Of a stretch of 64,000 nucleotides of DNA, positions 27,087 through 40,239 are shown in pieces. Location: NCBI GenBank assembly GCA_034521575.1, contig JAXHMJ010000001.1:186001-250000 (forward strand), read 5' to 3'. The translations under genes were made by a program, and so were the position numbers. Under the pieces are notes generated by a model that was given only the letters and a program-made list of their open reading frames with translations, searched no databases and was not told the origin of the DNA. This stretch comes from a candidate division KSB1 bacterium. Its GTDB lineage: Bacteria; Zhuqueibacterota; Zhuqueibacteria; Residuimicrobiales; Krinioviventaceae. The first letter of the stretch is position 1; each line of letters starts with the position of its first letter.

Positions 27087-27788
27087 ATGAAAAAATCAAC
27101 CCGAACCGATGATTTATCCATCTCTGTCATTATTCCGACTTTGAACGAGGAAAAGAATGTTGCTGAACTGTTAAAATATCTGAAAAACCTGGACGAACGT
27201 CTGGAACTCATTGTTGCGGACGCCGGCAGTCAGGATGGAACCGCAGCGCGTGCCAGGCGGCTCAGCCGGATGATCGAGTCTCCGCGCGGCCGCGGGATTC
27301 AAATGAATAAAGGTGCACAGGCGGCAACCGGCGAGGTTCTCTGGTTTTTGCACGCTGATTGCCGGCCGCACCCGGACTCGCTCCCGGCCATGCTGGCGGC
27401 ATTATCTGATCCGCATCTGGTCGGCGGCGGCTTTGAATATAATCTGGATCATCCGTCCCGTCGCTTCCGCTGGACGGAATTTTTTTCCAACCGCAAAAAC
27501 CGCATGCTGACCTGGCTGTTCGGAGATATGGGGATTTTTGTCCGACGGCCGGTGTTTGAACGCATGGGAGGCTATAAAGAAATTCCGCTCATGGAGGATA
27601 TGGATTTCAGCAAACGGCTCAAAGAGGAGGGGAATATTGTGATTCTGCCGCTGCGCATCAACACGTCGGCGCGTCGCTGGCTTGAAGAAGGATATATTTA
27701 TCATTCTATCCGCAGCTGGGTACTGCAGAGCGCCTGGCGTCTGGGGGCGTCGCCGGAAACTCTGGCGCGGTTTTATACATTCAAATAA
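27087..27788 (+). CDS. Family 2 glycosyltransferase, TIGR04283-like (rSAM/selenodomain-associated transferase 2)
   Basis: A 233-residue GT-A transferase: ISVIIPTLNEEKNVAELL at the N-terminus, VADAGSQDGT near residue 44, the GRGIQMNKGAQAATGEVLWF stretch and HADCRP carrying the DxD-type metal site. The tail has MEDMDFSKRLKEEG. The GRG-x-QMN-x-G motif separates this group (TIGR04283, named for arsenosugar-associated transferases) from ordinary family 2 enzymes. AAGAGG precedes the start. With the TIGR04282-like gene at 28810 and DUF547 between, it forms a recurrent gene set. Substrate unknown. Confidence 0.82.
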   Translation: MKKSTRTDDLSISVIIPTLNEEKNVAELLKYLKNLDERLELIVADAGSQDGTAARARRLSRMIESPRGRGIQMNKGAQAATGEVLWFLHADCRPHPDSLPAMLAALSDPHLVGGGFEYNLDHPSRRFRWTEFFSNRKNRMLTWLFGDMGIFVRRPVFERMGGYKEIPLMEDMDFSKRLKEEGNIVILPLRINTSARRWLEEGYIYHSIRSWVLQSAWRLGASPETLARFYTFK

Positions 27789-28007
27789 GTTCCCGGGGTA
27801 AATCTGTAAAACACGCTGTATCCTATCGTATCATACCCGATCGTACAGAAATAAAAGTTTATTGATTTTTTTGATGGATTAATTCAATGATTTTTAATGT
27901 TAAATTTTTTAACCATGAAACGGGTGAATAAATCTGTTTTCCTTTAATCGTCACGTTCTTTAAATACCCTAAAATGTTTGAACAGTGTTTGTTTGCAAAG
28001 GATTATG

Positions 28008-28826
28008 ATGCGTGGATTATTATTACTACTCTTGATCGTTCTGTCGGCAGTCCCGTCCCGCTCCGCCGGCCCGGCGTTCAGCCATTCGGCTTTTGACGCT
28101 GTGCTGCAAGAGCATGTGCAAAATGGTCTGGTTGATTACCAGGCCTTGACACAAAACCGGCAGCGTTTAAAACTCTATTTAAAACAGATTGAACGGGTGG
28201 ACGCGGATTCATTTCGACAGTGGGACAGAGCGGAACAAATGGCCTTGTGGATCAATGCCTACAATGCCATTACCATTGAGGGCATTGTGCGACATTATCC
28301 CATTGATTGGGGGAATTTGCTCTCCCGTGCGCGTTTCCCGAAAAGCAGCATCCGGCAGATCAGCGGCTTTTGGGATAAAGTTTTTATTCCGGTCATGGGC
28401 CGGGACCTGACTCTAAATGATATTGAACACAATGTTCTGCGCAAACAGTACAAGGACCCCCGCATTCATTTTGTGCTTGTCTGCGCATCCATCGGTTGTC
28501 CCAAACTGCCGAATCGGGCGTTTACAGCGGATCAGCTGAATCAACAAATGGATGCCGCCACCCGCGAATTTATTCAAAATCCGGACAAGAATCGGCTCGA
28601 CAAACAGGAGAATATTCTTTATCTGTCATCGATCTTTAAATGGTATAAAGAAGATTTTCCGGCCTCCGCCGGTTCCGGTTCCCTGAAAGTGTATGGCGAT
28701 GAACGAGGCGTGGTCGAGTTTGCCGCTGACTATAGGTCCGAATCGGATAGAAAGTTTATTTATGAACAGCAGCCGAAACTGAAATATCTGGATTACGACT
28801 GGTCGCTGAATGATCAGGCGAAATAA
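28008..28826 (+). CDS. DUF547 family secreted protein
   Basis: A 272-residue protein with a signal peptide (MRGLLLLLLIVLSAVPSRSA). The DUF547 core is clear: MALWINAYNAITIEGIVRHY near residue 80, then FIPVMGRDLTLNDIEHNVLR and the conserved HFVLVCASIGCPKLPNRAF with its cysteine, and YLSSIFKWYKEDF. Function unknown; probably periplasmic. AAGGA at 27998-28002 fits the second ATG, 28008, and an upstream TTG at 27978 is less likely. Its 3' end overlaps the TIGR04282-like gene by 17 bases, so the genes are co-translated. Confidence 0.87.
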   Translation: MRGLLLLLLIVLSAVPSRSAGPAFSHSAFDAVLQEHVQNGLVDYQALTQNRQRLKLYLKQIERVDADSFRQWDRAEQMALWINAYNAITIEGIVRHYPIDWGNLLSRARFPKSSIRQISGFWDKVFIPVMGRDLTLNDIEHNVLRKQYKDPRIHFVLVCASIGCPKLPNRAFTADQLNQQMDAATREFIQNPDKNRLDKQENILYLSSIFKWYKEDFPASAGSGSLKVYGDERGVVEFAADYRSESDRKFIYEQQPKLKYLDYDWSLNDQAK

Positions 28827-29505
28827 AAATGGTCTCATCCTGTTCGCGAAAGCGCCGCGTCCCGGCCGGGTCAAAACGCGGCTGCAGCCGGAATTGACAA
28901 TGGAGCAGGCGTTGACCTTATACCGGGCCATGGTTGAGGATACTGTAGAGCGGTTGTCTGATGATCATGCATGGGATATGATCATAGGCTTTACGCCTGC
29001 GGACAGCGGCGATGACATGAAAAGCTGGCTGGGCGCGTCATTTAATTATATCTCCCAGAACGGTTTGAATCTGGGGGAGCGCATGCGTCATGCCCTGGCA
29101 AGCGTTCTAAATGACGGATATGAACATGCGGCGCTTGTCGGCAGCGATATTCCACTGTTATCCAAAAACGCCGTGGCGGGTGCGTTTTCCGGCCTGGAAC
29201 AACACGATGCCGTTATCGGTCCGACAAATGACGGTGGTTATTACCTGATCGGTATGAATTCGGATCAACCGCAGCTTTTTAAAGACATTGCATGGAGCAC
29301 GGACCGGGTGTTTCAGCAAACTCTAAGGCGGGCGCAAAAAGCGCATCTGAATATAGGGCGCCTTGAACCGTATGCGGATATCGACACCTGGTCTGATGTG
29401 GAGCAGCTCTGGAAACGCCTGCAGCCGATGAGCGCACAAGAACTTGATTCAGATCAGTTGAGAGCGACATATGCCGCGATAAAGCGAATTTTTGAATCGA
29501 ATTGA
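28810..29505 (+). CDS. TIGR04282-like transferase (DUF2064; rSAM/selenodomain-associated transferase 1)
   Basis: A 231-residue nucleotidyltransferase-fold protein. The N-terminus GLILFAKAPRPGRVKTRLQP is the family signature. IGFTPADSGDD, LGERMRHALASVLNDGY, ALVGSDIPLLS and VIGPTNDGGYYLIGM follow in the family order. Members are described as glycosyl- or nucleotidyl-transferases linked to arsenosugar synthesis. No arsM or radical-SAM partner lies in the window, so that role is only a suggestion. It overlaps DUF547 by 17 bases and is followed 15 bases later by the TVP38 gene. Confidence 0.87.
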   Translation: MIRRNKNGLILFAKAPRPGRVKTRLQPELTMEQALTLYRAMVEDTVERLSDDHAWDMIIGFTPADSGDDMKSWLGASFNYISQNGLNLGERMRHALASVLNDGYEHAALVGSDIPLLSKNAVAGAFSGLEQHDAVIGPTNDGGYYLIGMNSDQPQLFKDIAWSTDRVFQQTLRRAQKAHLNIGRLEPYADIDTWSDVEQLWKRLQPMSAQELDSDQLRATYAAIKRIFESN

Positions 29506-29520
29506 GATAAAGGAGGTCTC

Positions 29521-30258
29521 TTGGATCAATCAAAATCAGGATGGAAAAAAGCCTGGCTAAAGCTAACTGTTCTGGCCGCTATTGCCGCTGTGATTTTTGT
29601 GGTCTTTCGGGTTACTCCCCTGTCCGTTTCGGATTTTACACCGTCGCGGGTTCGGGATTTTATACTGCAGTTCGGCGTCTGGTCGCCGATTGTGTTTATG
29701 ATTCTTTATGCATTGCGTGGCGCCGTTCTGGTGCTTCCGGTCGGGATTATGTCGCTGGCCGGGGGGCTGGCATTCGGCCAGTGGTGGGGAACCCTTTATA
29801 TTTTAATCGGAGCCACATTGGGCGCCAGTCTTTCCTTTGTCATCGCGCGTTTTTTTGGCCGTCAGTTTATTGAAAATTTCAGCTGGCTGCACAATGGGAA
29901 AATCAAACAGTTTGATGATGGTATTGAAAAAAACGGATTCCGCATGATGCTGTTCATGCGTCTGATTCCATTGTTCCAGTATGATGCGGTTAATTTCGGC
30001 GGCGGCCTGTCCAGGATAAAATTTCGCGATTTTTTCTTTGCTTCATTTGTTGGGATGGCCCCGGGTGGTTTTATCAATGCCATGCTGGGCAGTTCTCTGG
30101 ACAACATCATTTCAGTCCAGTTTTTTGCCGCGCTGGGTTTCTTTGTTTTACTGATGTTTATACCAACCCTCTACAAGAAAATTGTGAAAAAGAAAACCGG
30201 AAAAACCGCAAAAGAAAAGATAGAGCAGAAAGCAAAGCCTGACATCGAAACGTCATAA
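29521..30258 (+). CDS. TVP38/TMEM64 (DedA-like, SNARE-associated) membrane protein
   Basis: A 245-residue inner-membrane protein with about six hydrophobic segments. The family motif region GVWSPIVFMILYALRGAVLV, then LAGGLAFGQWWGTLYILIGA and FIARF-type turns, is followed by the second conserved loop FRMMLFMRLIPLFQYDAVNF and GMAPGGFINAMLGSSL. The charged tail is KKKTGKTAKEKIEQKAKPD. A TTG start follows AAAGGAGGT. Related proteins are often next to or fused with mercuric-reductase-like flavoproteins, as here at 30620. Role unknown, possibly lipid scrambling or redox-linked transport. Confidence 0.87.
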   Translation: MDQSKSGWKKAWLKLTVLAAIAAVIFVVFRVTPLSVSDFTPSRVRDFILQFGVWSPIVFMILYALRGAVLVLPVGIMSLAGGLAFGQWWGTLYILIGATLGASLSFVIARFFGRQFIENFSWLHNGKIKQFDDGIEKNGFRMMLFMRLIPLFQYDAVNFGGGLSRIKFRDFFFASFVGMAPGGFINAMLGSSLDNIISVQFFAALGFFVLLMFIPTLYKKIVKKKTGKTAKEKIEQKAKPDIETS

Positions 30259-30285
30259 AGACTTTAAACCGGAACGGAGTTAAAC

Positions 30286-30579
30286 ATGGGAAAATGTCCT
30301 GAATGTGGAAACAAAATCGGCCCTTTGTCCATCATTATGAGTTGGGAAAAATGGGGAGAGTTCCAATGTCCCGAATGCGGCTCTCAAATTCGCTTCAAAT
30401 ACTGGCTGCTCACCGGACTTTTGTTGATGGGATTGTTTACCGGCGCTGAACGAATACTGCACTGGATGCTGATTTCACCTCTGCCTTTATGGGCAAGCTT
30501 TGCGATCAGTTTTGTGCTGGCGCTGCTGATTATGATGCTGGTCCCGATGATCTGGGAATTTCAAAAGACAAAACACTGA
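30286..30579 (+). CDS. Small zinc-ribbon membrane protein
   Basis: A 97-residue protein with two CxxC pairs (MGKCPECGNKIG and FQCPECGSQI) forming a zinc ribbon, then two membrane helices (YWLLTGLLLMGLFTGA and ASFAISFVLALLIMMLVPM). It lies between TVP38 and the flavoprotein, with 27-base and 40-base gaps, in the same operon. Family not recognised. It may be a membrane-tethered metal or nucleic-acid binder. Confidence 0.75.
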   Translation: MGKCPECGNKIGPLSIIMSWEKWGEFQCPECGSQIRFKYWLLTGLLLMGLFTGAERILHWMLISPLPLWASFAISFVLALLIMMLVPMIWEFQKTKH

Positions 30580-30619
30580 AACACAGGCAGTGTACAATCA
30601 AGGATAGAAGGAGCCTAAA

Positions 30620-32047
30620 TTGGCAAAATATGACTATGATTTGATCGTGATCGGGGCAGGGTCCGGCGGAATCAGTTCCGCGATTCTGGGTAATAATCTG
30701 GGGAAAAAAACGGCGCTGATTGAAAAGGAAAAGATTGGCGGAGACTGTACCTGGCACGGATGTGTGCCCAGCAAAACCCTGATCAAAGCCGGGAATGTGG
30801 CCCGGCATGTGAACACACTGGATTCGTACGGATTGAGGGTGAACGGAGATTTTACCCTGAACAGCAAGCAGGTGATGGCGCATGTGCGCGCTGTGCGCGA
30901 TTCCGTCTATCAGGGAGAAACCCCGGATGTCTTTAAAGATATGGGGATTGATGTGTACATCGGCGGAGCCCGATTCCTGGATGGTCATCGTATTGCGGTT
31001 GGCGATCAGGAATTATCGTCAAAATCGTTTGTGATATCCACGGGGTCCAGTCCCTTTGTTCCGCCGATTGAAGGGGTCGGGGATATTGATTATTTGACCA
31101 ATGAAACCCTGTTTGAACTTGAAACTTTGCCGGATTCAATGGTGATTGTCGGCGGCGGCCCTATCGGGTCGGAAATGGCGTCGGCTTTGAGTCAACTGGG
31201 GGTTCAGATCACACAAATCGAAGCGACCGGCCATTTGCTGTCCAAAGAAGACCCGGAATTGTCCGCTGTCTTGATGCAGCAGATGCAGAAAAACGGCGTC
31301 AACCTTTTGACCCACACCCGTGCAAAGCAATTCAGCAAAAACGGCGATAAAGTTGTGGTTTCTTTGCAGAACGAATCGCTGGACCGCGTTGAAGCCGACG
31401 CCGTGCTCATTGCCGTCGGCAGACGTCCCAATGTGGATACGCTTGACCTTGACAAGGCGGGTGTTGAATTTACCTCCCGGGGCATTCAGGTCAACAAGCG
31501 GCTGCAGACCACTGCGCCGAACATTTACGCCATCGGTGATGTCATCGGGTCGTACCAGTTCAGCCATATCGCCGAGTATCATGCCGGCATCGCGGTTCCG
31601 AATGCTGTGCTGCCACTGCCGGTAAAGCGCAAAGCCGATTATGAAAACATTGTCTGGACCACTTTTACCGATCCCGAATTTGCGCGCGGCGGTCTGACAG
31701 AAGCGCAGGCACGGGAAACCTATGGAGACAGTATCCGGATTTATCGTTTTAATTATGAAAAGGTCGACCGCGCCCAAACTGATCTGACGACCGCCGGGAT
31801 GAGCAAGTTCATCGTCAATAAAAAAGGTAAACTTTTCGGCATTCACATCGTCGGAGAACGTGCGGGAGAACTGCTGCACGAAGCGCAGCTGGCCAAGTCC
31901 CTGGGTGTTCCGTTTCACAAAATCCAGTCCATGGTGCATGTGTACCCGACCTATGGTGATATGGTCAAACGTCCGTCGGTTGCGGCGTATGTGGACAAAT
32001 TACAGAACAATTTTTTTATAAAGCTGGTGAAAAAACTGAAAAAATAA
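30620..32047 (+). CDS. Mercuric-reductase-like FAD-dependent pyridine nucleotide-disulfide oxidoreductase
   Basis: A 475-residue two-dinucleotide-binding flavoprotein. FAD site: DLIVIGAGSGGISSAI. Redox-active disulfide: GGDCTWHGCVPSKTLIKAG. NAD(P) site: MVIVGGGPIGSEMASAL. C-terminal interface: HIVGERAGELLHEAQLA with the HxxYPTYGDM motif that supplies the base. Mercuric reductases have an extra C-terminal cysteine pair, absent here, and the N-terminal mercury-binding domain is missing, so mercury reduction is unlikely; substrate unknown. TTG start after GAAGGAG. This type is often fused to or beside TVP38, as here. Confidence 0.88.
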   Translation: MAKYDYDLIVIGAGSGGISSAILGNNLGKKTALIEKEKIGGDCTWHGCVPSKTLIKAGNVARHVNTLDSYGLRVNGDFTLNSKQVMAHVRAVRDSVYQGETPDVFKDMGIDVYIGGARFLDGHRIAVGDQELSSKSFVISTGSSPFVPPIEGVGDIDYLTNETLFELETLPDSMVIVGGGPIGSEMASALSQLGVQITQIEATGHLLSKEDPELSAVLMQQMQKNGVNLLTHTRAKQFSKNGDKVVVSLQNESLDRVEADAVLIAVGRRPNVDTLDLDKAGVEFTSRGIQVNKRLQTTAPNIYAIGDVIGSYQFSHIAEYHAGIAVPNAVLPLPVKRKADYENIVWTTFTDPEFARGGLTEAQARETYGDSIRIYRFNYEKVDRAQTDLTTAGMSKFIVNKKGKLFGIHIVGERAGELLHEAQLAKSLGVPFHKIQSMVHVYPTYGDMVKRPSVAAYVDKLQNNFFIKLVKKLKK

Positions 32048-32155
32048 TATTACGGCAGAAACTTTCCGGTTTGTCGAAATAATCGGTTGTGGATTTGCAG
32101 AACGCCGAGCCGGCACCATAGTTGAACATTGATGGAGATTGTGAAAGGTAAAAAG

Positions 32156-33016
32156 ATGAGTTTTGAATATTGGTTTATGCTGCCTGTTTCGTTTGTGTTT
32201 GCAACCATCGCCATAGCCTCGGGAGTGGGCGGGGCGACGTTTTTTGCGCCTTTTTTTATGCTGGCGCTGCGTCTGCCGCCTGAAATCGCCATTGGTACCG
32301 GTCTCATCACCGAAGTGTTCGGCTTTGCCAGCGGACTGTATGCCTATGCGCGCAAAAAGCTCATTGATTACAAGTTGGGTCTCACGCTGCTGACCGTGAC
32401 CGTGCCCATGGCGCTGCTGGGAACCTGGGTCTCCGGCGCGGTCGAAGCGAACGTGTTAAAAGCGGTTCTCGGAATGGGATTGTTTGCGATTGCGGCCGCT
32501 TTTATGCGCGCGCCGCAGTCCGAGGATATTGATCTGCTGGATACCCATATTCAGAAAACATACGGTGGCGTGCAGGCGGAAACCTGTATCATCACCCGGG
32601 ATCAGGAGAAAATTTGTTATACAGTTTGCAACAAAACACAGGGCCGTCTGATTGCCGGAATCGGCGGATTGTTTGTTGGGATGATCTCGACCGGACTGGG
32701 TGAGTTGAACGGTTATTTTCTGCTGCAGCGCTGTCGGGTGCCCAGCGCGGTTTCCGTGGCCACCAGCGTATTTGTGGTCGCTGTCACGGTGCTGATCGCA
32801 TCTCTTGGACATTTTTACAAATTCACAACCTATGGCCCGGAGACGTTGCAAATGGTGTTCAGTATTGTTATGTTTACCATACCGGGCGTGATTGTCGGCG
32901 CCCAGGCGGGATCATTTGTGTCCCGCAAGATCCCGCAGCCCGTTCTGGAAAAAGGGCTGGGAATCCTGTTTATGCTGCTTGCATTTCTAACGATTGGTGA
33001 AATTGTCCTGCATTGA
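32156..33016 (+). CDS. TauE/SafE-type sulfite/organic-anion exporter
   Basis: A 286-residue polytopic membrane protein with seven to eight helices. It has the TauE/SafE pattern GVGGATFFAPFFMLALRLPP followed by IGTGLITEVFG, and the repeat unit GGLFVGMISTGLGELNGYFL in the second half. A hydrophilic stretch (about 130-160) is inserted between the two halves. It exports or imports sulfur-containing anions such as sulfite or sulfoacetate in other bacteria. AAAGG precedes the ATG at 32156; in-frame starts at 32129 and 32132 lack a ribosome site. Confidence 0.87.
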   Translation: MSFEYWFMLPVSFVFATIAIASGVGGATFFAPFFMLALRLPPEIAIGTGLITEVFGFASGLYAYARKKLIDYKLGLTLLTVTVPMALLGTWVSGAVEANVLKAVLGMGLFAIAAAFMRAPQSEDIDLLDTHIQKTYGGVQAETCIITRDQEKICYTVCNKTQGRLIAGIGGLFVGMISTGLGELNGYFLLQRCRVPSAVSVATSVFVVAVTVLIASLGHFYKFTTYGPETLQMVFSIVMFTIPGVIVGAQAGSFVSRKIPQPVLEKGLGILFMLLAFLTIGEIVLH

Positions 33017-33052
33017 AATTGAATCTACTATTTATTAAAAGTATATTGAGTT

Positions 33053-33859
33053 ATGACAGAAAATATGCCGGATATTCAACGCTATCGCTATATCATTGCC
33101 GCCGCTGTTTTTTTCCTTTTGCTGGCGCTGGAAACGTTTTATCCGTTGTTCCAGGGCCGTCAAAAAAGAATAAAGCACATCGGCAGGAATTTTTCTATTG
33201 TGATTATTGATAATCTGGTCTTTTTTGCGCTGCTGGCAGCCGCCACCGGTTTTGTCTTTCGTTATATCGAGCAGAACCGGATGGGTTTACTGTATCAAAT
33301 TCAACTGCCCGCGGTTCTGCGCATAGCGCTTATCATTGTCCTGTTTGATCTGTGGATGTATATCTGGCACCGCTGGACGCATACCTCCGATTTTTTGTGG
33401 CGATTTCACCGCATGCATCACAGCGATCCGGCGATGGATGCGTCTACCGCGCTGCGGTTTCATCCCGGGGAAATTATCATTTCCACACTGCTGCGCTGGG
33501 GTGTATTCCTGATTCTGGGTGTGACGGCCTTTGAGCTGTTGATTTATGAAACCATTATGCTGCCGGTGATTTTCTTTCATCACAGCAATTTTTATCTGCC
33601 TGAAAAACCGGATAAGCTGCTCCGGCAGGTGATTGTGACACCCTGGATGCACTGGGTGCATCACTCACACCTCAAATACGAGACCAATTCCAATTACGGC
33701 ACGATTTTCTCCTGGTGGGACAGACTGTTTGCTTCATTCCGACTGCGCTCCGAGCCGGAAACCATACATTACGGACTGGATACTATCCGGGGCTCCGGCT
33801 GGCAGACGGTTTGGGGTATGCTGAAAACCCCATTTGTTAATCGATTTGATAAAGGATGA
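33053..33859 (+). CDS. Fatty acid hydroxylase / sterol desaturase superfamily protein
   Basis: A 268-residue membrane protein with four helices and the histidine set of di-iron hydroxylases: HRWTH (near residue 104), FHRMHHSD (near 116), FFHHSN (near 180) and HWVHHSH (near 200). These are HxxxH, HxxHH and HxxHH motifs. Family members hydroxylate or desaturate lipids using oxygen; alkylglycerol mono-oxygenase of the same superfamily needs tetrahydrobiopterin. The substrate is unknown here. It follows TauE/SafE by 36 bases and precedes the ADP-ribosylglycohydrolase homologue by 4, so it may be the link between the two operons. Confidence 0.87.
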   Translation: MTENMPDIQRYRYIIAAAVFFLLLALETFYPLFQGRQKRIKHIGRNFSIVIIDNLVFFALLAAATGFVFRYIEQNRMGLLYQIQLPAVLRIALIIVLFDLWMYIWHRWTHTSDFLWRFHRMHHSDPAMDASTALRFHPGEIIISTLLRWGVFLILGVTAFELLIYETIMLPVIFFHHSNFYLPEKPDKLLRQVIVTPWMHWVHHSHLKYETNSNYGTIFSWWDRLFASFRLRSEPETIHYGLDTIRGSGWQTVWGMLKTPFVNRFDKG

Positions 33860-35261: not shown

Positions 35262-36458
35262 GTGAGAATACTTCTGATCCATTTATGGGTGATTTGCCTG
35301 CTCGGCGGCGCCGCCCATGCGCAATCCGGCTGGACGGATATTGAAAAACAGGCCAAAGGACAAACGGTCAACTGGTTTATGTGGGGCGGATTTCCTGCGG
35401 CAAATGCCTATGTCAACGGATATGTGGCGCCGGAAATGAAAGACCGCTATGATATCGAGGTCAGACAGATTCCGGTCCAGGATATTGCAGAAGTGGTCAG
35501 TAAACTGCTCATTGAAAAACAGGCTGGAATTGAACGCGGAGAGGTCGATTTGATGTGGATCAACGGCGAGAATTTTCGCACTTGCAAAACATACAATCTG
35601 TTGTACGGGCCGTTTGCGCAAAAGCTGCCGAACCGGAAATATATTGATCCGAATGATTCCGCTGTCCGCTTTGATTTTGGCGAACCGGTCGGAGGGCTGG
35701 AATCGCCGTGGGGCAGCGCCCAGTTTGTGATGATTTACGACAGTTTGCGTACGCCGCAGCCGCCCAGTTCAATCGATGCGTTTTTGACCTGGATTCGCGA
35801 GCATCAGAACCGGTTTACCTATCCGGCGCCGCCGGATTTCACCGGATCTGTGTTTATCCGGCACCTGTTTTATCATGTGGCCGGCGTCCGGCAAAACTGG
35901 CAGCAGGATGTGGATCAGGCCGCGTTTGAGCGCGCTGAATCGCGGCTGTATGAGCTGCTGCGCGGTTTGAAACCGTTTTTGTGGCGTCAGGGCCGCACCT
36001 ATCCTGAATCGCCGCAAAAGCTTATGCAGATGTTTGCGGACGGCCAAGTGGATTTTGCCATGAGTTATCATCCGGCCGATGCCTCCAGAATGATGCGGGA
36101 TGGACTGCTGCCGCCGGGCACCCGCAGTTTTTTATTCGAGATTGGTACCATTGCCAACACGCATTTTGTCGCCATCCCGTTCAACGCCCGTGCCAAAGCT
36201 GCGGCTATGCTTGTTGCTAACTTTTTATTGTCGCCGGAGGCCCAGCTGCGCAAAGCGGATATTGAGGTCTGGGGGGATCTGCCGGTTGTGGATTTTGATT
36301 CTCTCAGTGCGTCCTGGCGCAAACGCTTTACCGGATTGAACCGCGGTAAAGCGACACTGTCCGCTGAGCGTTTGAAACAGAACCAGCTGCCCGAACCGGC
36401 GTCCGATATTCTGATTCAGCTGGAAAAAGGCTGGGAACGCGAGGTGCTGCGCAAATAA
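35262..36458 (+). CDS. YnjB-like ABC importer substrate-binding protein
   Basis: A 398-residue periplasmic protein with signal peptide MRILLIHLWVICLLGGAAHA. VNWFMWGGFPAANAYVNGYV near residue 36 and VDLMWINGENFRTCKT near 87 are typical of the YnjB branch of extracellular solute-binding proteins, which is annotated as putative thiamine-type transport. GTG start, 44 bases after the hydrolase stop. The gene is followed directly by two permeases and an ATPase, all with stop-start overlaps. Substrate not known; thiamine or another organic small molecule fits the family and the following kinase-like gene. Confidence 0.8.
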   Translation: MRILLIHLWVICLLGGAAHAQSGWTDIEKQAKGQTVNWFMWGGFPAANAYVNGYVAPEMKDRYDIEVRQIPVQDIAEVVSKLLIEKQAGIERGEVDLMWINGENFRTCKTYNLLYGPFAQKLPNRKYIDPNDSAVRFDFGEPVGGLESPWGSAQFVMIYDSLRTPQPPSSIDAFLTWIREHQNRFTYPAPPDFTGSVFIRHLFYHVAGVRQNWQQDVDQAAFERAESRLYELLRGLKPFLWRQGRTYPESPQKLMQMFADGQVDFAMSYHPADASRMMRDGLLPPGTRSFLFEIGTIANTHFVAIPFNARAKAAAMLVANFLLSPEAQLRKADIEVWGDLPVVDFDSLSASWRKRFTGLNRGKATLSAERLKQNQLPEPASDILIQLEKGWEREVLRK

Positions 36459-37372
36459 TGAAACGTTTTGCGGAAACAAGCAGCGACCTTGTGCGTTCCA
36501 ATCTGGCATGGCGGGGCCGAACTCTGCTGTTGTTATTGCCTTCGCTGCTTATTGTTGTGGGATTGTTCGGAGGCGGCCTGATTCTCGGACTGATGCAGGC
36601 GGCCGGGTATTTTCCCGGTTCCGGCGCCGAATCGTTTACGCTGGAACACTTTAAAAATGTATTCATTCATCCTGATTTTTTCAGCAGTCTGTTGCTCACT
36701 TTTTATGTTTCCGCAACCTCTACGCTGCTGGCCGTCGTGTTCAGTCTGATCTCGGCTTTGCTGGTCATGTCCATGCTCAGGCGCTTCAACTGGCTGCACC
36801 TCGTCATGCAGATTCCCTTGGTGGTTCCGCACCTGCTGATCGCAACGGCGATCCTGTTTCTGTTATCGCCCACCGGCTTTTTGTCGCGCCTTGCTCATGC
36901 GCTGCAGTTGATCGAATCGCCGGCCGGGTTTCCCGTCCTGATTCATGATCCCTGGCTTTTAGGTGTCATACTGGTTTATGTGTGGAAAGAAATCCCGTTT
37001 TTAACGCTGATGCTGCTGTCGGTTTTACTTAATCTGGATACCCGGCTTTTGCAGGTGGGAAAAACACTCAAAGCGAACCGCTGGCAGCGCTTCCGTTTTA
37101 TTATTTTTCCGTCTATTTTCCCCAGCCTTTCCGCCGGGACGCTGATCGTGTTTGCCTACAGCTTTGGCGCCTTTGAAGTGCCGTATCTTTTGGGTCAAAC
37201 CTATCCGATGACGCTGCCGGTGTGGGCGTACCGGCAGTATTCCGATATTGATCTGATGTCCCGGCCCGAAGGCATTGCTGCCGGTCTTGTCATTGCGCTG
37301 GTGATTCTGCTGTTTGTGTTTATCGCTTATGCTTTGGTGAAAAAATCCGCTTCCGGGAGGTTGCCGATATGA
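36458..37372 (+). CDS. ABC transporter permease, first subunit (YnjC-like N-terminal half)
   Basis: A 304-residue inner-membrane permease with about six helices. The EAA-type loop RLLQVGKTLKANRWQRFRFI marks the binding-protein-dependent transport permease family. The ATG shares its first base with the last base of the binding-protein stop codon (TAATG). In E. coli YnjC the two permease halves are fused; here they are two genes, this one and 37369-38163. Confidence 0.85.
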   Translation: MKRFAETSSDLVRSNLAWRGRTLLLLLPSLLIVVGLFGGGLILGLMQAAGYFPGSGAESFTLEHFKNVFIHPDFFSSLLLTFYVSATSTLLAVVFSLISALLVMSMLRRFNWLHLVMQIPLVVPHLLIATAILFLLSPTGFLSRLAHALQLIESPAGFPVLIHDPWLLGVILVYVWKEIPFLTLMLLSVLLNLDTRLLQVGKTLKANRWQRFRFIIFPSIFPSLSAGTLIVFAYSFGAFEVPYLLGQTYPMTLPVWAYRQYSDIDLMSRPEGIAAGLVIALVILLFVFIAYALVKKSASGRLPI

Positions 37373-38163
37373 GACGCTTTTTATCCGGATCTTTTATTCT
37401 GGTTCTGACTGCCGGTATTTTGCTGCCGTTTCTGCCACTGCTGATCTGGGCGTTCAGTCGACAATGGCTGTTTCCGGATCTGTTGCCCGAAACCTGGGGG
37501 CTGCGCGCCTGGAACTATGTTTTCGGCGTGGCCGGGCCACAGGTTACCTCGGCTCTTGTAACCAGTGTAAGTGTGTCGTCACTGGCTGCGCTGTTTTCTG
37601 TTGCCCTTGCGCTTCCCGCAGCGCGCGTGCTAACTTTTTCCGGCAGAAAACGGGGACTGTTTCTGCAGTTTCTCTTTGTACTCCCGATCCTGACGCCGCC
37701 GCTGTCGGTGTCCATGGGACTGCATCTCTGGTTTTTGAAATTGGGCCTGACGGGTTCACTGCCCGGTGTGCTGCTGGTGCATCTGACGCTCTGCGTACCC
37801 TATGCTGTTTTTGTTTTGTCCGGCGTGTTTTCGAATTACAATCCATTGATCGAAGCGCAGGCGCGTTCGCTCGGCGCTTCGAAATGGTTTGTCTTTTCGC
37901 GAGTTACGCTGCCGCTCATTCTACCCGGAATTATCGTGGCGGCCTTGTTTGCTTTTCTGCTATCCTGGAGTCAGTATCTGAATACTTTGATTATCGGCGG
38001 CAGCAAAGTGATGACACTGCCTGTCCTGCTGTTTTCCCTGCTGAGAAGCGGGGACCGTCCGGTAGCCGCAGCTGTCAGTCTGGTGATTGTACTGCCGGCC
38101 TTTGCGGCGCTGCTGATCAGCGCCCGCACACTGGGACGTCGTGCCTGGATAGGAGGGTGGTGA
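37369..38163 (+). CDS. ABC transporter permease, second subunit
   Basis: A 264-residue permease with about six membrane helices and the loop EAQARSLGASKWFVFSRVTL, with LPLILPGIIV behind it (EAA motif). It starts within ATGA overlapping the previous permease stop and ends by TGATG overlap with the ATPase start. It pairs with the first permease to form the membrane channel. Confidence 0.87.
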   Translation: MRRFLSGSFILVLTAGILLPFLPLLIWAFSRQWLFPDLLPETWGLRAWNYVFGVAGPQVTSALVTSVSVSSLAALFSVALALPAARVLTFSGRKRGLFLQFLFVLPILTPPLSVSMGLHLWFLKLGLTGSLPGVLLVHLTLCVPYAVFVLSGVFSNYNPLIEAQARSLGASKWFVFSRVTLPLILPGIIVAALFAFLLSWSQYLNTLIIGGSKVMTLPVLLFSLLRSGDRPVAAAVSLVIVLPAFAALLISARTLGRRAWIGGW

Positions 38164-39198: not shown

Positions 39199-40239
39199 AT
39201 GAGCGCAACCGATCCGCTGATCGCAAAAATTACGGATTACCTGTCCACTCCGGACCTGCAGAGCCTGCCGGTCATTGCGGGTAGAACCTTCCGGATCAAA
39301 TTTCTCGCCGGGGGTGAATATAATCTGAATTATAAACTGACATCGACCGATGATGAGGTGAAACTAATTTTCCGCGTCAATATCGGGACGCAAATCGACC
39401 GCAAGGATCAGATTCTGTATGAATACCGCACGCTGCAGCTGTTGCAGTCCAGCGGCGTCACACCGGTACCGTATTGGGTGGATGATTCGCGGCAGTATTT
39501 TCAACAGGGTGTGCTGATGATGCAGTTTCTGCCGGGAGAACCGCTGGACTATACAACTGATCTTAATGCGGCGGCTGAAACACTGGCGCGCCTTCATCAG
39601 GTTAAAGTGCCGGAAGAGCAGAATCATCTGATCCGCGAACAGGCGCCGCTGTCCCTGATCTTTGAGGAATGCGCCGGATTGCTGCAGGTTTATTTTGACT
39701 CGGAGCTGGCTGATCCGGCTATACGTACCTATCTGCAGCACGTGCGCGACTGGGCGGATGAAAACCGGCGGGCCGAGGTCTATTATCAACTGGACTCGTG
39801 GCATTGTATCATCAATACCGAAGTGAATTCAGGAAATTTTATCGTCAACCGCGAAAACGGTACCACACATCTGGTGGATTGGGAAATGCCGCGCTGGGGC
39901 GATCCCTCGCAGGACCTGTCGCATTTTTGTTCACCGCTGACCACCCTGTGGAAAACGACTTTTCGTATGACGTCTGAACAAAAAGATGGATTTATACAAT
40001 ATTACAAATCTGTAATTCAAGATTTGCATCTGCGGGATACGTTGGAAGAGCGCATTGCTCTCAGGGACCCGTTTGCCTATCTGCGCGGGATATCCTGGTC
40101 GGCCATGGGCTGGGTGGCGTATCAGACTGAATATAAAGGACGGCGTAATCCGGATACCTGGAAAACCCTGCAACATTATATGCGACTTGATTTTATCCGC
40201 TCTCTTTTTGATCCGATTCTCAAACGCTCTTTGATTTAA
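39199..40239 (+). CDS. APH-fold phosphotransferase (aminoglycoside/choline/thiamine-kinase-like) with altered catalytic loop
   Basis: A 346-residue kinase-fold protein. N-lobe: FLAGGEYNLNYKL glycine-rich strand near residue 36. MMQFLPGEPL is the hinge and ARLHQVKV the helix typical of APH. The catalytic loop, usually HxDxxxxN, reads NTEVNSGN at 206-213: the general base Asp is Glu, and the His is Asn. The metal-binding motif LVDWEMPRWGDPSQDL (Asp227) is intact. It starts one base after the ATPase stop, so a likely job is phosphorylating the imported compound to trap it; thiamine kinase also has this fold. This is inference. Confidence 0.75.
   Translation: MSATDPLIAKITDYLSTPDLQSLPVIAGRTFRIKFLAGGEYNLNYKLTSTDDEVKLIFRVNIGTQIDRKDQILYEYRTLQLLQSSGVTPVPYWVDDSRQYFQQGVLMMQFLPGEPLDYTTDLNAAAETLARLHQVKVPEEQNHLIREQAPLSLIFEECAGLLQVYFDSELADPAIRTYLQHVRDWADENRRAEVYYQLDSWHCIINTEVNSGNFIVNRENGTTHLVDWEMPRWGDPSQDLSHFCSPLTTLWKTTFRMTSEQKDGFIQYYKSVIQDLHLRDTLEERIALRDPFAYLRGISWSAMGWVAYQTEYKGRRNPDTWKTLQHYMRLDFIRSLFDPILKRSLI

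Follow-up and report, generated by a model that had tools for sequence, protein, structure and literature searches.

Gene content of the cluster

This analysis concerns a gene cluster in a 64,000-nucleotide stretch of DNA (referred to as the window: bases 186001-250000 of contig 1) from a candidate division KSB1 bacterium, whose genome assembly spans 5 contigs with 5,258,914 bases in total, at 96.3% completeness. Genomes compared are numbered G (with G000 for the window genome) and loci compared L. On the + strand, eight genes at 27087-33859 bring together two transferases (GT283, NT282), a DUF547 protein, a TVP38-type membrane protein (VTT), a small zinc-ribbon protein (ZNR), a flavoprotein (FLAV), a TauE transporter and a fatty-acid hydroxylase. 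Homology of this cluster to arsenosugar-type loci that carry the radical enzyme ArsS is well supported, and so is the absence of ArsS and ArsM from the G000 genome. The fresh element is the zinc-ribbon protein, which links TVP38 proteins with mer operons.

27087..27788, + strand: GT283, TIGR04283-family GT-A (GT2) glycosyltransferase, 233 aa (NCBIfam 237.6 bits, cut-off 182)
27789..27977: 189-bp spacer; the slot holds a peroxidase-like gene and ArsS in G060 and a kinase gene in G058
27978..28826, + strand: DUF547 protein; N-terminus hydrophobic, CASIGCP motif (PF04784 104.5 bits; alignment of 6)
28810..29505, + strand: NT282, TIGR04282/DUF2064 CofC-like nucleotidyltransferase, 231 aa (207.5 bits, cut-off 134)
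29521..30258, + strand: VTT, TVP38/DedA-type membrane protein, 245 aa (PF09335 95.6 bits, gathering score 33.9)
30286..30579, + strand: ZNR, 97-aa CxxC-x20-CxxC zinc-ribbon membrane protein
30620..32047, + strand: FLAV, MerA/PRK06370-like FAD disulphide oxidoreductase, 475 aa (Pfam, NCBIfam, alignments)
32129..33016, + strand: TauE/SafE-family transporter, 295 aa (PF01925 114.1 bits)
33053..33859, + strand: fatty-acid hydroxylase (sterol desaturase) superfamily membrane protein (PF04116 95.5 bits)
39199..40239, + strand: APH-family kinase, tentative cluster member (PF01636 71.9 bits)

From GT283 to the fatty-acid hydroxylase, the genes lie 189, -17, 15, 27, 40, 81 and 36 bases apart, and all frames are open and tightly spaced. 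Profile scores bear out the TIGR04283, TIGR04282, DUF547, TVP38 and TauE genes named in an earlier reading of the sequence (the original prediction), with both transferases over cut-off and GT283 the sole TIGR04283 place over cut-off in the genome. The 97-residue gene that it had listed as separate from a zinc ribbon turned out to be one and the same gene counted twice (30286-30579; Cys4, Cys7, Cys28, Cys31). Apart from one Leu-to-Ile change in DUF547, the window proteins retain their conserved positions, and this speaks against decay of the cluster: GT283 has retained its family's conserved acidic positions and those conserved in 93% of rows, and Arg99 and Arg136 of the aligned stretch of VTT recur in 13 of 13 rows. 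For DUF547, a predicted model of moderate quality (mean pLDDT 78.7, 6 sequences) had no structural match by Foldseek below E 0.5, nor by VIA at a Z of 8 or more, where the best (6.3) was to unrelated helical proteins.

Kinship with ArsS-bearing loci

Using profiles built here, we scanned 88 loci plus a 30-kb stretch of the window. Nearly the same order recurs in G058, which belongs to another family of the same class and has no ArsS over cut-off in its genome: GT283 - APH kinase - DUF547 - NT282 - VTT - ZNR - FLAV - TauE (L044). Proteins that are 43-73% identical, in an order interrupted by a single kinase gene, argue that the arrangement is not due to chance. Synteny with the window is also seen in ArsS-bearing G013, G060, G082, G083 and G084. 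G060, the nearest GT283 relative (69%), has GT283 - TIGR04169-type peroxidase-like gene - ArsS - start of DUF547 at a contig end (L047) and, on a second contig (L148), DUF547 - NT282 - two frames - VTT - PD-(D/E)XK frame - ZNR; the two contigs presumably join. G013 (L045) shows GT283 - TIGR04169-type gene - ArsS - NT282 - VTT-ZNR fusion - two other genes - FLAV, followed by a 223-aa protein and then a fatty-acid hydroxylase. The order is GT283 - ArsS - NT282 - VTT - FLAV, without ZNR, in G082 and G083 (L068, L069) and GT283 - VTT-ZNR fusion - FLAV of another subfamily (35%) - NT282 in G084 (L070), where ArsS lies 6.5 kb upstream. So with ArsS-type clusters (TIGR04167, TIGR04169, TIGR04282, TIGR04283; G013 L045, G060 L047/L148) the window has GT283, NT282, VTT and the ZNR domain in common, as well as DUF547 with G060 and FLAV plus fatty-acid hydroxylase with G013, but it differs in having TauE, with no ArsS or ArsM found in the genome and no TIGR04169-type gene in the 30 kb scanned.

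Genome-wide searches back the original prediction in that arsenosugar partners are missing: in all 5 contigs of the G000 genome, neither ArsS (TIGR04167; best 51 bits vs 300) nor ArsM (NF008823; best 53.1 bits vs 263) is found over cut-off. Its statement that the window has no arsM or radical SAM gene can be extended to the genome for ArsS and ArsM; other radical SAM genes (weak TIGR04167 matches) do occur in the genome. The divergent ArsM-like protein of ArsS locus L097 reaches 197.6 bits, itself below the NF008823 cut-off, so nothing even that close was seen in the window genome. Labels were checked on single members, with 451 bits for ArsS of G060 (cut-off 300) and 164 bits for TIGR04169 of G005 (cut-off 120). 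The search for a TIGR04169-type or AhpD-like gene, which covered window positions 15001-45000 and no other part of the genome, gave no hit, and tblastn left no trace of ArsS or an AhpD-like protein in the spacer (27789..27977). A short AhpD match at 27715-27786 was dropped as a remnant candidate: it falls inside the GT283 gene, out of the GT283 frame, and with a stop-to-stop frame as query we read it as a frame overlapping GT283 DNA.

To relate the transferase families to ArsS more widely, we ran profile searches at curated cut-offs over 82 genomes of the phylum (including G000) and cross-tabulated the lists. TIGR04283 is present in 22 genomes, TIGR04282 in 27 and ArsS in 13; since many of these genomes are drafts and related to each other, absences are soft and counts are not independent events. 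ArsS is lacking from 14 of the 22 TIGR04283 genomes and 14 of the 27 TIGR04282 genomes. Conversely, all 13 ArsS genomes carry TIGR04282 and 5 of the 13 do without TIGR04283. Among 43 further genomes, from outside the phylum, ArsS was over cut-off in 25 (four with one in-frame TGA); these genomes were chosen by GT283-type loci rather than by the TIGR04283 model (43 of 47 loci, leaving aside L067, which shares its contig with L047, and weak L111-L113), and they extend to L109 and L110 proteins only 29% and 25% identical to that of the window. Because of the ArsS-less carriers (14/22 and 14/27), the TIGR04283/TIGR04282 pair alone - from which the original prediction had taken its arsenosugar lead - is no evidence for arsenosugar synthesis. 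For the same reason, the NCBIfam title of both families, 'arsenosugar biosynthesis glycosyltransferase', would mislabel many of their proteins. In its available part, a global soil metagenome study places TIGR04282 under arsenic stress tolerance (PMC11237643).

This bears on the option that the window locus does serve arsenosugar synthesis, either with ArsS and ArsM that escaped the searches or gave way to unrelated enzymes, or by drawing on imported methylated arsenic or arsenonucleoside. Its gene content does match ArsS clusters, TIGR04282 accompanies ArsS throughout the phylum sample and NCBIfam names both families accordingly. With neither ArsS nor ArsM reaching cut-off in a genome of just 5 contigs, the AhpD-ArsS slot closed by a 189-bp spacer and the same order in G058 also without ArsS, we nonetheless think such a locus improbable.

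How the ArsS-less form may have arisen was approached through a maximum-likelihood tree built on 64 GT283 domains, after omission of L067 and of all rows scoring below 200 bits or shorter than 180 residues. The window pairs with ArsS-bearing G060 (98/93) and next with ArsS-bearing G084 (99/95), and the starred branches force at least nine changes of ArsS status, which implies that GT283 repeatedly lives with and without ArsS. Since G060 has a TIGR04169-type gene and ArsS where the window has 189 bases, ArsS was probably lost in the window lineage. One could also envisage that what is left of an arsenosugar cluster is now decaying and persists through inertia. Here, the key enzyme is missing; in G041, of the same family, the NT282 frame (L161 1213-1830, - strand) contains one in-frame TAG - due to decay or draft error - and the stretch seen there has GT283 and NT282 but none of the other profiled genes. 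The open, tightly spaced frames of the window, its retained conserved positions and the preservation of the same ArsS-less order in G058 at 43-73% identity speak against this, however, and we judge decay to be decidedly unlikely.

Some of the loci scanned have other small features in common. Pentose-phosphate genes adjoin the cluster in L044 (16709-19100), L070 (3499-9955) and L071 (10692-11390), with rpiA in all three, a gnd-like gene in two and a transaldolase/isomerase-like gene in L070, which could be chance. Directly upstream of GT283, L044 (9338-9631) and L047 (9178-9489) have a small gene of 97 and 103 aa, respectively, that looks thioredoxin-like; the L044 copy is without Pfam or NCBIfam match, and the window has no counterpart at that place. 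In L090 and L101, DUF547 adjoins GT283 on the other strand.

Zinc ribbon, flavoprotein and downstream genes

Matches to ZNR are rare, with 6 in the 82 phylum genomes and 1 in the 43 others (a match in G001 with E 0.006, 17 bits and 33 positions was dropped before counting), and Cys4, Cys7, Cys28 and Cys31 are invariant in 7 of 7 aligned rows. ZNR resembles the TIGR04104 zinc finger family in length and cysteine layout (judged by the family's name), and the full-length match to it is weak (24.8 bits, below the cut-off of 45). One hydrophobic segment is clear (residues 71-89), and a second, weaker one (about 40-57) is seen by eye only. In contrast to the expectation that the 97-residue gene always sits between TVP38 and the flavoprotein, this is strictly so in 2 of the 7 genomes (G000, G058). 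In two others (G013, G084), VTT carries ZNR as a C-terminal fusion, which supports a link between ZNR and VTT; in G060, ZNR lies one frame after VTT at a contig end, and in the remaining two (G039, G040; same genus) it belongs to merA-merTP operons. No ZNR match was found among 72,556 plasmid records.

In these mer operons (L145 826-4039, - strand; L147 885-4541), MerR and MerA with an HMA domain (Pfam-checked in L145) occur together with a MerTP fusion and the zinc-ribbon membrane gene. G039 scores 511.6 bits for MerA (cut-off 454.45), 277.7 for MerTP (180) and 145.3 for MerR (just under 150.85); G040 has MerA at 514.1 bits and its other mer genes were read from frames. Like the window, they place a ZNR (60-61% identical to that of the window) close to a flavoenzyme of the MerA superfamily, whereas window FLAV does not reach the MerA cut-off and has no HMA domain, and G000 has no MerTP over cut-off. 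Our literature search, with subscription journals mostly outside its scope, brought up no description of a zinc-ribbon membrane gene in mer operons and no functional study of TIGR04282 or TIGR04283, or of DUF547 together with TVP38.

As for FLAV, assigned earlier as a mercuric-reductase-like enzyme, it is indeed a MerA-like pyridine nucleotide-disulphide oxidoreductase but falls short of the MerA model TIGR02053 (362 bits vs 454.45); its best NCBIfam model is PRK06370.1-3 (421.5 bits, under the cut-off of 620). It has the redox pair CTWHGC (Cys-x4-Cys), HVYPTYGD near the C-terminus and a Tyr where aligned dihydrolipoamide dehydrogenase has His, a Tyr also present in the MerA rows of L145 and L147. 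MerA has a C-terminal vicinal cysteine pair; FLAV has no cysteine among its last 20 residues, so it lacks this pair, and a Pfam scan detected no HMA domain in it. Judged by sequence, FLAV is MerA-like, not MerA. COG0398 DedA proteins fused to pyridine nucleotide-disulphide oxidoreductase domains have been published (PMC10127716, in the part available). VTT beside a disulphide oxidoreductase is reminiscent of these, yet the window genes are separate with the zinc-ribbon gene between them, and the fusion in G013 and G084 is VTT-ZNR.

Whether both halves of the cluster belong together may be questioned, and two adjacent modules without shared pathway can be pictured, an envelope-glycan one (DUF547, GT283, NT282) and a redox or metal one (VTT-ZNR-FLAV-TauE). 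Consistent with this, G039 (a draft, 86% complete) has DUF547 - VTT - FLAV with no ZNR between, on a contig other than that of its mer operon, and gives no TIGR04283 or TIGR04282 match; GT283 is found without VTT and FLAV in many loci, including same-class L049-L064, and beside DUF547 with neither VTT nor FLAV in 8 loci of family f13; and ZNR resides in mer operons. Close homologues in unrelated neighbourhoods, which the original prediction named as evidence against itself, were thus found in part: same-class GT283 on one side and ZNR in two genomes on the other. Both halves are, however, adjacent in G000, G058, G013, G082, G083, G084 and the more divergent L077 and L081, which read VTT - FLAV - DUF547 - GT283 - ArsM-like (profile built here) - NT282 in genomes with no ArsS over cut-off. 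Hence, to our minds, two unrelated modules seem rather doubtful.

Further downstream, the fatty-acid hydroxylase gene (33053-33859), beyond the limits set by the original prediction, probably belongs to the cluster; relatives are near such clusters in L045, adjoin GT283 in L076, precede it with VTT between in L079 and lie 4 kb away on the other strand in L109. TauE of the window has a 73% identical copy at the same place in G058. The APH kinase at 39199..40239 is 36% identical to the one sited between GT283 and DUF547 in G058. Between hydroxylase and kinase, an ADP-ribosylglycohydrolase-like gene on the + strand appears to be split (33834-34808 matches PF03747; 34843-35217 resembles the C-terminal part by eye); a YnjB-type ABC transporter gene (PRK11622, 509.5 bits), the APH kinase and a YjeF_N gene follow on the same strand. 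The YnjB-type genes (35262-38163) were excluded as cluster members, other loci being without a YnjB relative.

A possible role for the ArsS-less cluster

Evidence that GT283 and NT282 form one functional unit comes from fusions in both orders, with GT283 first in single open frames of G005 and G006 (470 and 481 aa) and NT282 first in L097. NT282 matches CofC at 28.9 bits, and the one relative with a solved structure, 3cgx, bears the database name of a putative nucleotide-diphospho-sugar transferase; the nearest solved relatives of GT283, by weak matches, include dolichol-phosphate mannose synthase and glucosyl-3-phosphoglycerate synthase. On sequence grounds, the pair may transfer a nucleotide-activated small substrate to a lipid or polyol acceptor. 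Another pairing of nucleotidyltransferase and glycosyltransferase is seen in four same-class genomes (L152-L155), where a different GT2-type gene, scoring about 100-110 bits against our GT283 profile, lies no more than 1 kb from TIGR04282.

The reading we favour, if tentatively and at somewhat less than even chances, is that of an ArsS-less variant of an arsenosugar-type cluster that has kept the transferase pair together with a VTT-ZNR-FLAV thiol-redox or soft-metal module. We base it on gene content and order in common with clusters that have ArsS and a TIGR04169-type gene, on the nearest GT283 relatives sitting in ArsS-bearing genomes, and on an ArsS slot reduced to a short spacer with no ArsS or ArsM found genome-wide. 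In such a scenario, AhpD-ArsS would have been lost in the lineage while the remaining genes stayed under selection. NT282, being CofC/FbiD-like, may activate a small phosphorylated sugar or acid by coupling it to a nucleotide; GT283 would then transfer the activated group, both acting as one unit. The acceptor or product might be a lipid or envelope molecule handled with DedA-type VTT and the fatty-acid hydroxylase, with DUF547 acting outside the membrane. VTT-ZNR-FLAV could constitute a membrane-bound thiol-redox module, in which the four ZNR cysteines would provide a membrane site for zinc or a thiophilic metal(loid), with FLAV using NAD(P)H to reduce a substrate that is either a disulphide or a metal-thiol. 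TauE might export an anionic product, so that the pathway would run without arsenic radical chemistry in the window organism.

Several points weigh against this proposal. We know of no biochemical function for TIGR04282, TIGR04283, DUF547 or ZNR, nor did our literature search bring one up. TauE is common to the window and G058 and to no other scanned locus. ArsS loss draws on one tree, and given the changes of ArsS status counted there, repeated gain would be compatible, too. With only 7 of 125 genomes having ZNR, most ArsS clusters do without it, and the link between ZNR and mer comes from two genomes of one genus. FLAV stays under the MerA cut-off, the best MerTP match in the G000 genome is 43.7 bits (vs 180) and, at the completeness of that genome, a distant ArsS could be missed. 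A bolder alternative, which strikes us as unlikely, sees VTT-ZNR-FLAV as a new membrane module for soft metal(loid)s or thiol stress that works like MerT/P-MerA, ZNR as a new accessory protein common to mer operons and arsenosugar-type clusters, and TIGR04282/TIGR04283 as serving a glycolipid pathway independent of arsenic, with ArsS having joined or left it on many occasions.

For the ArsS-less variant that we favour, clusters such as that of the window offer a route to finding what the transferase pair does without arsenic. Similarly, ZNR - fused to TVP38 in some genomes and sited in mer operons in others - provides a testable handle on the pairing of TVP38 proteins with flavoproteins.

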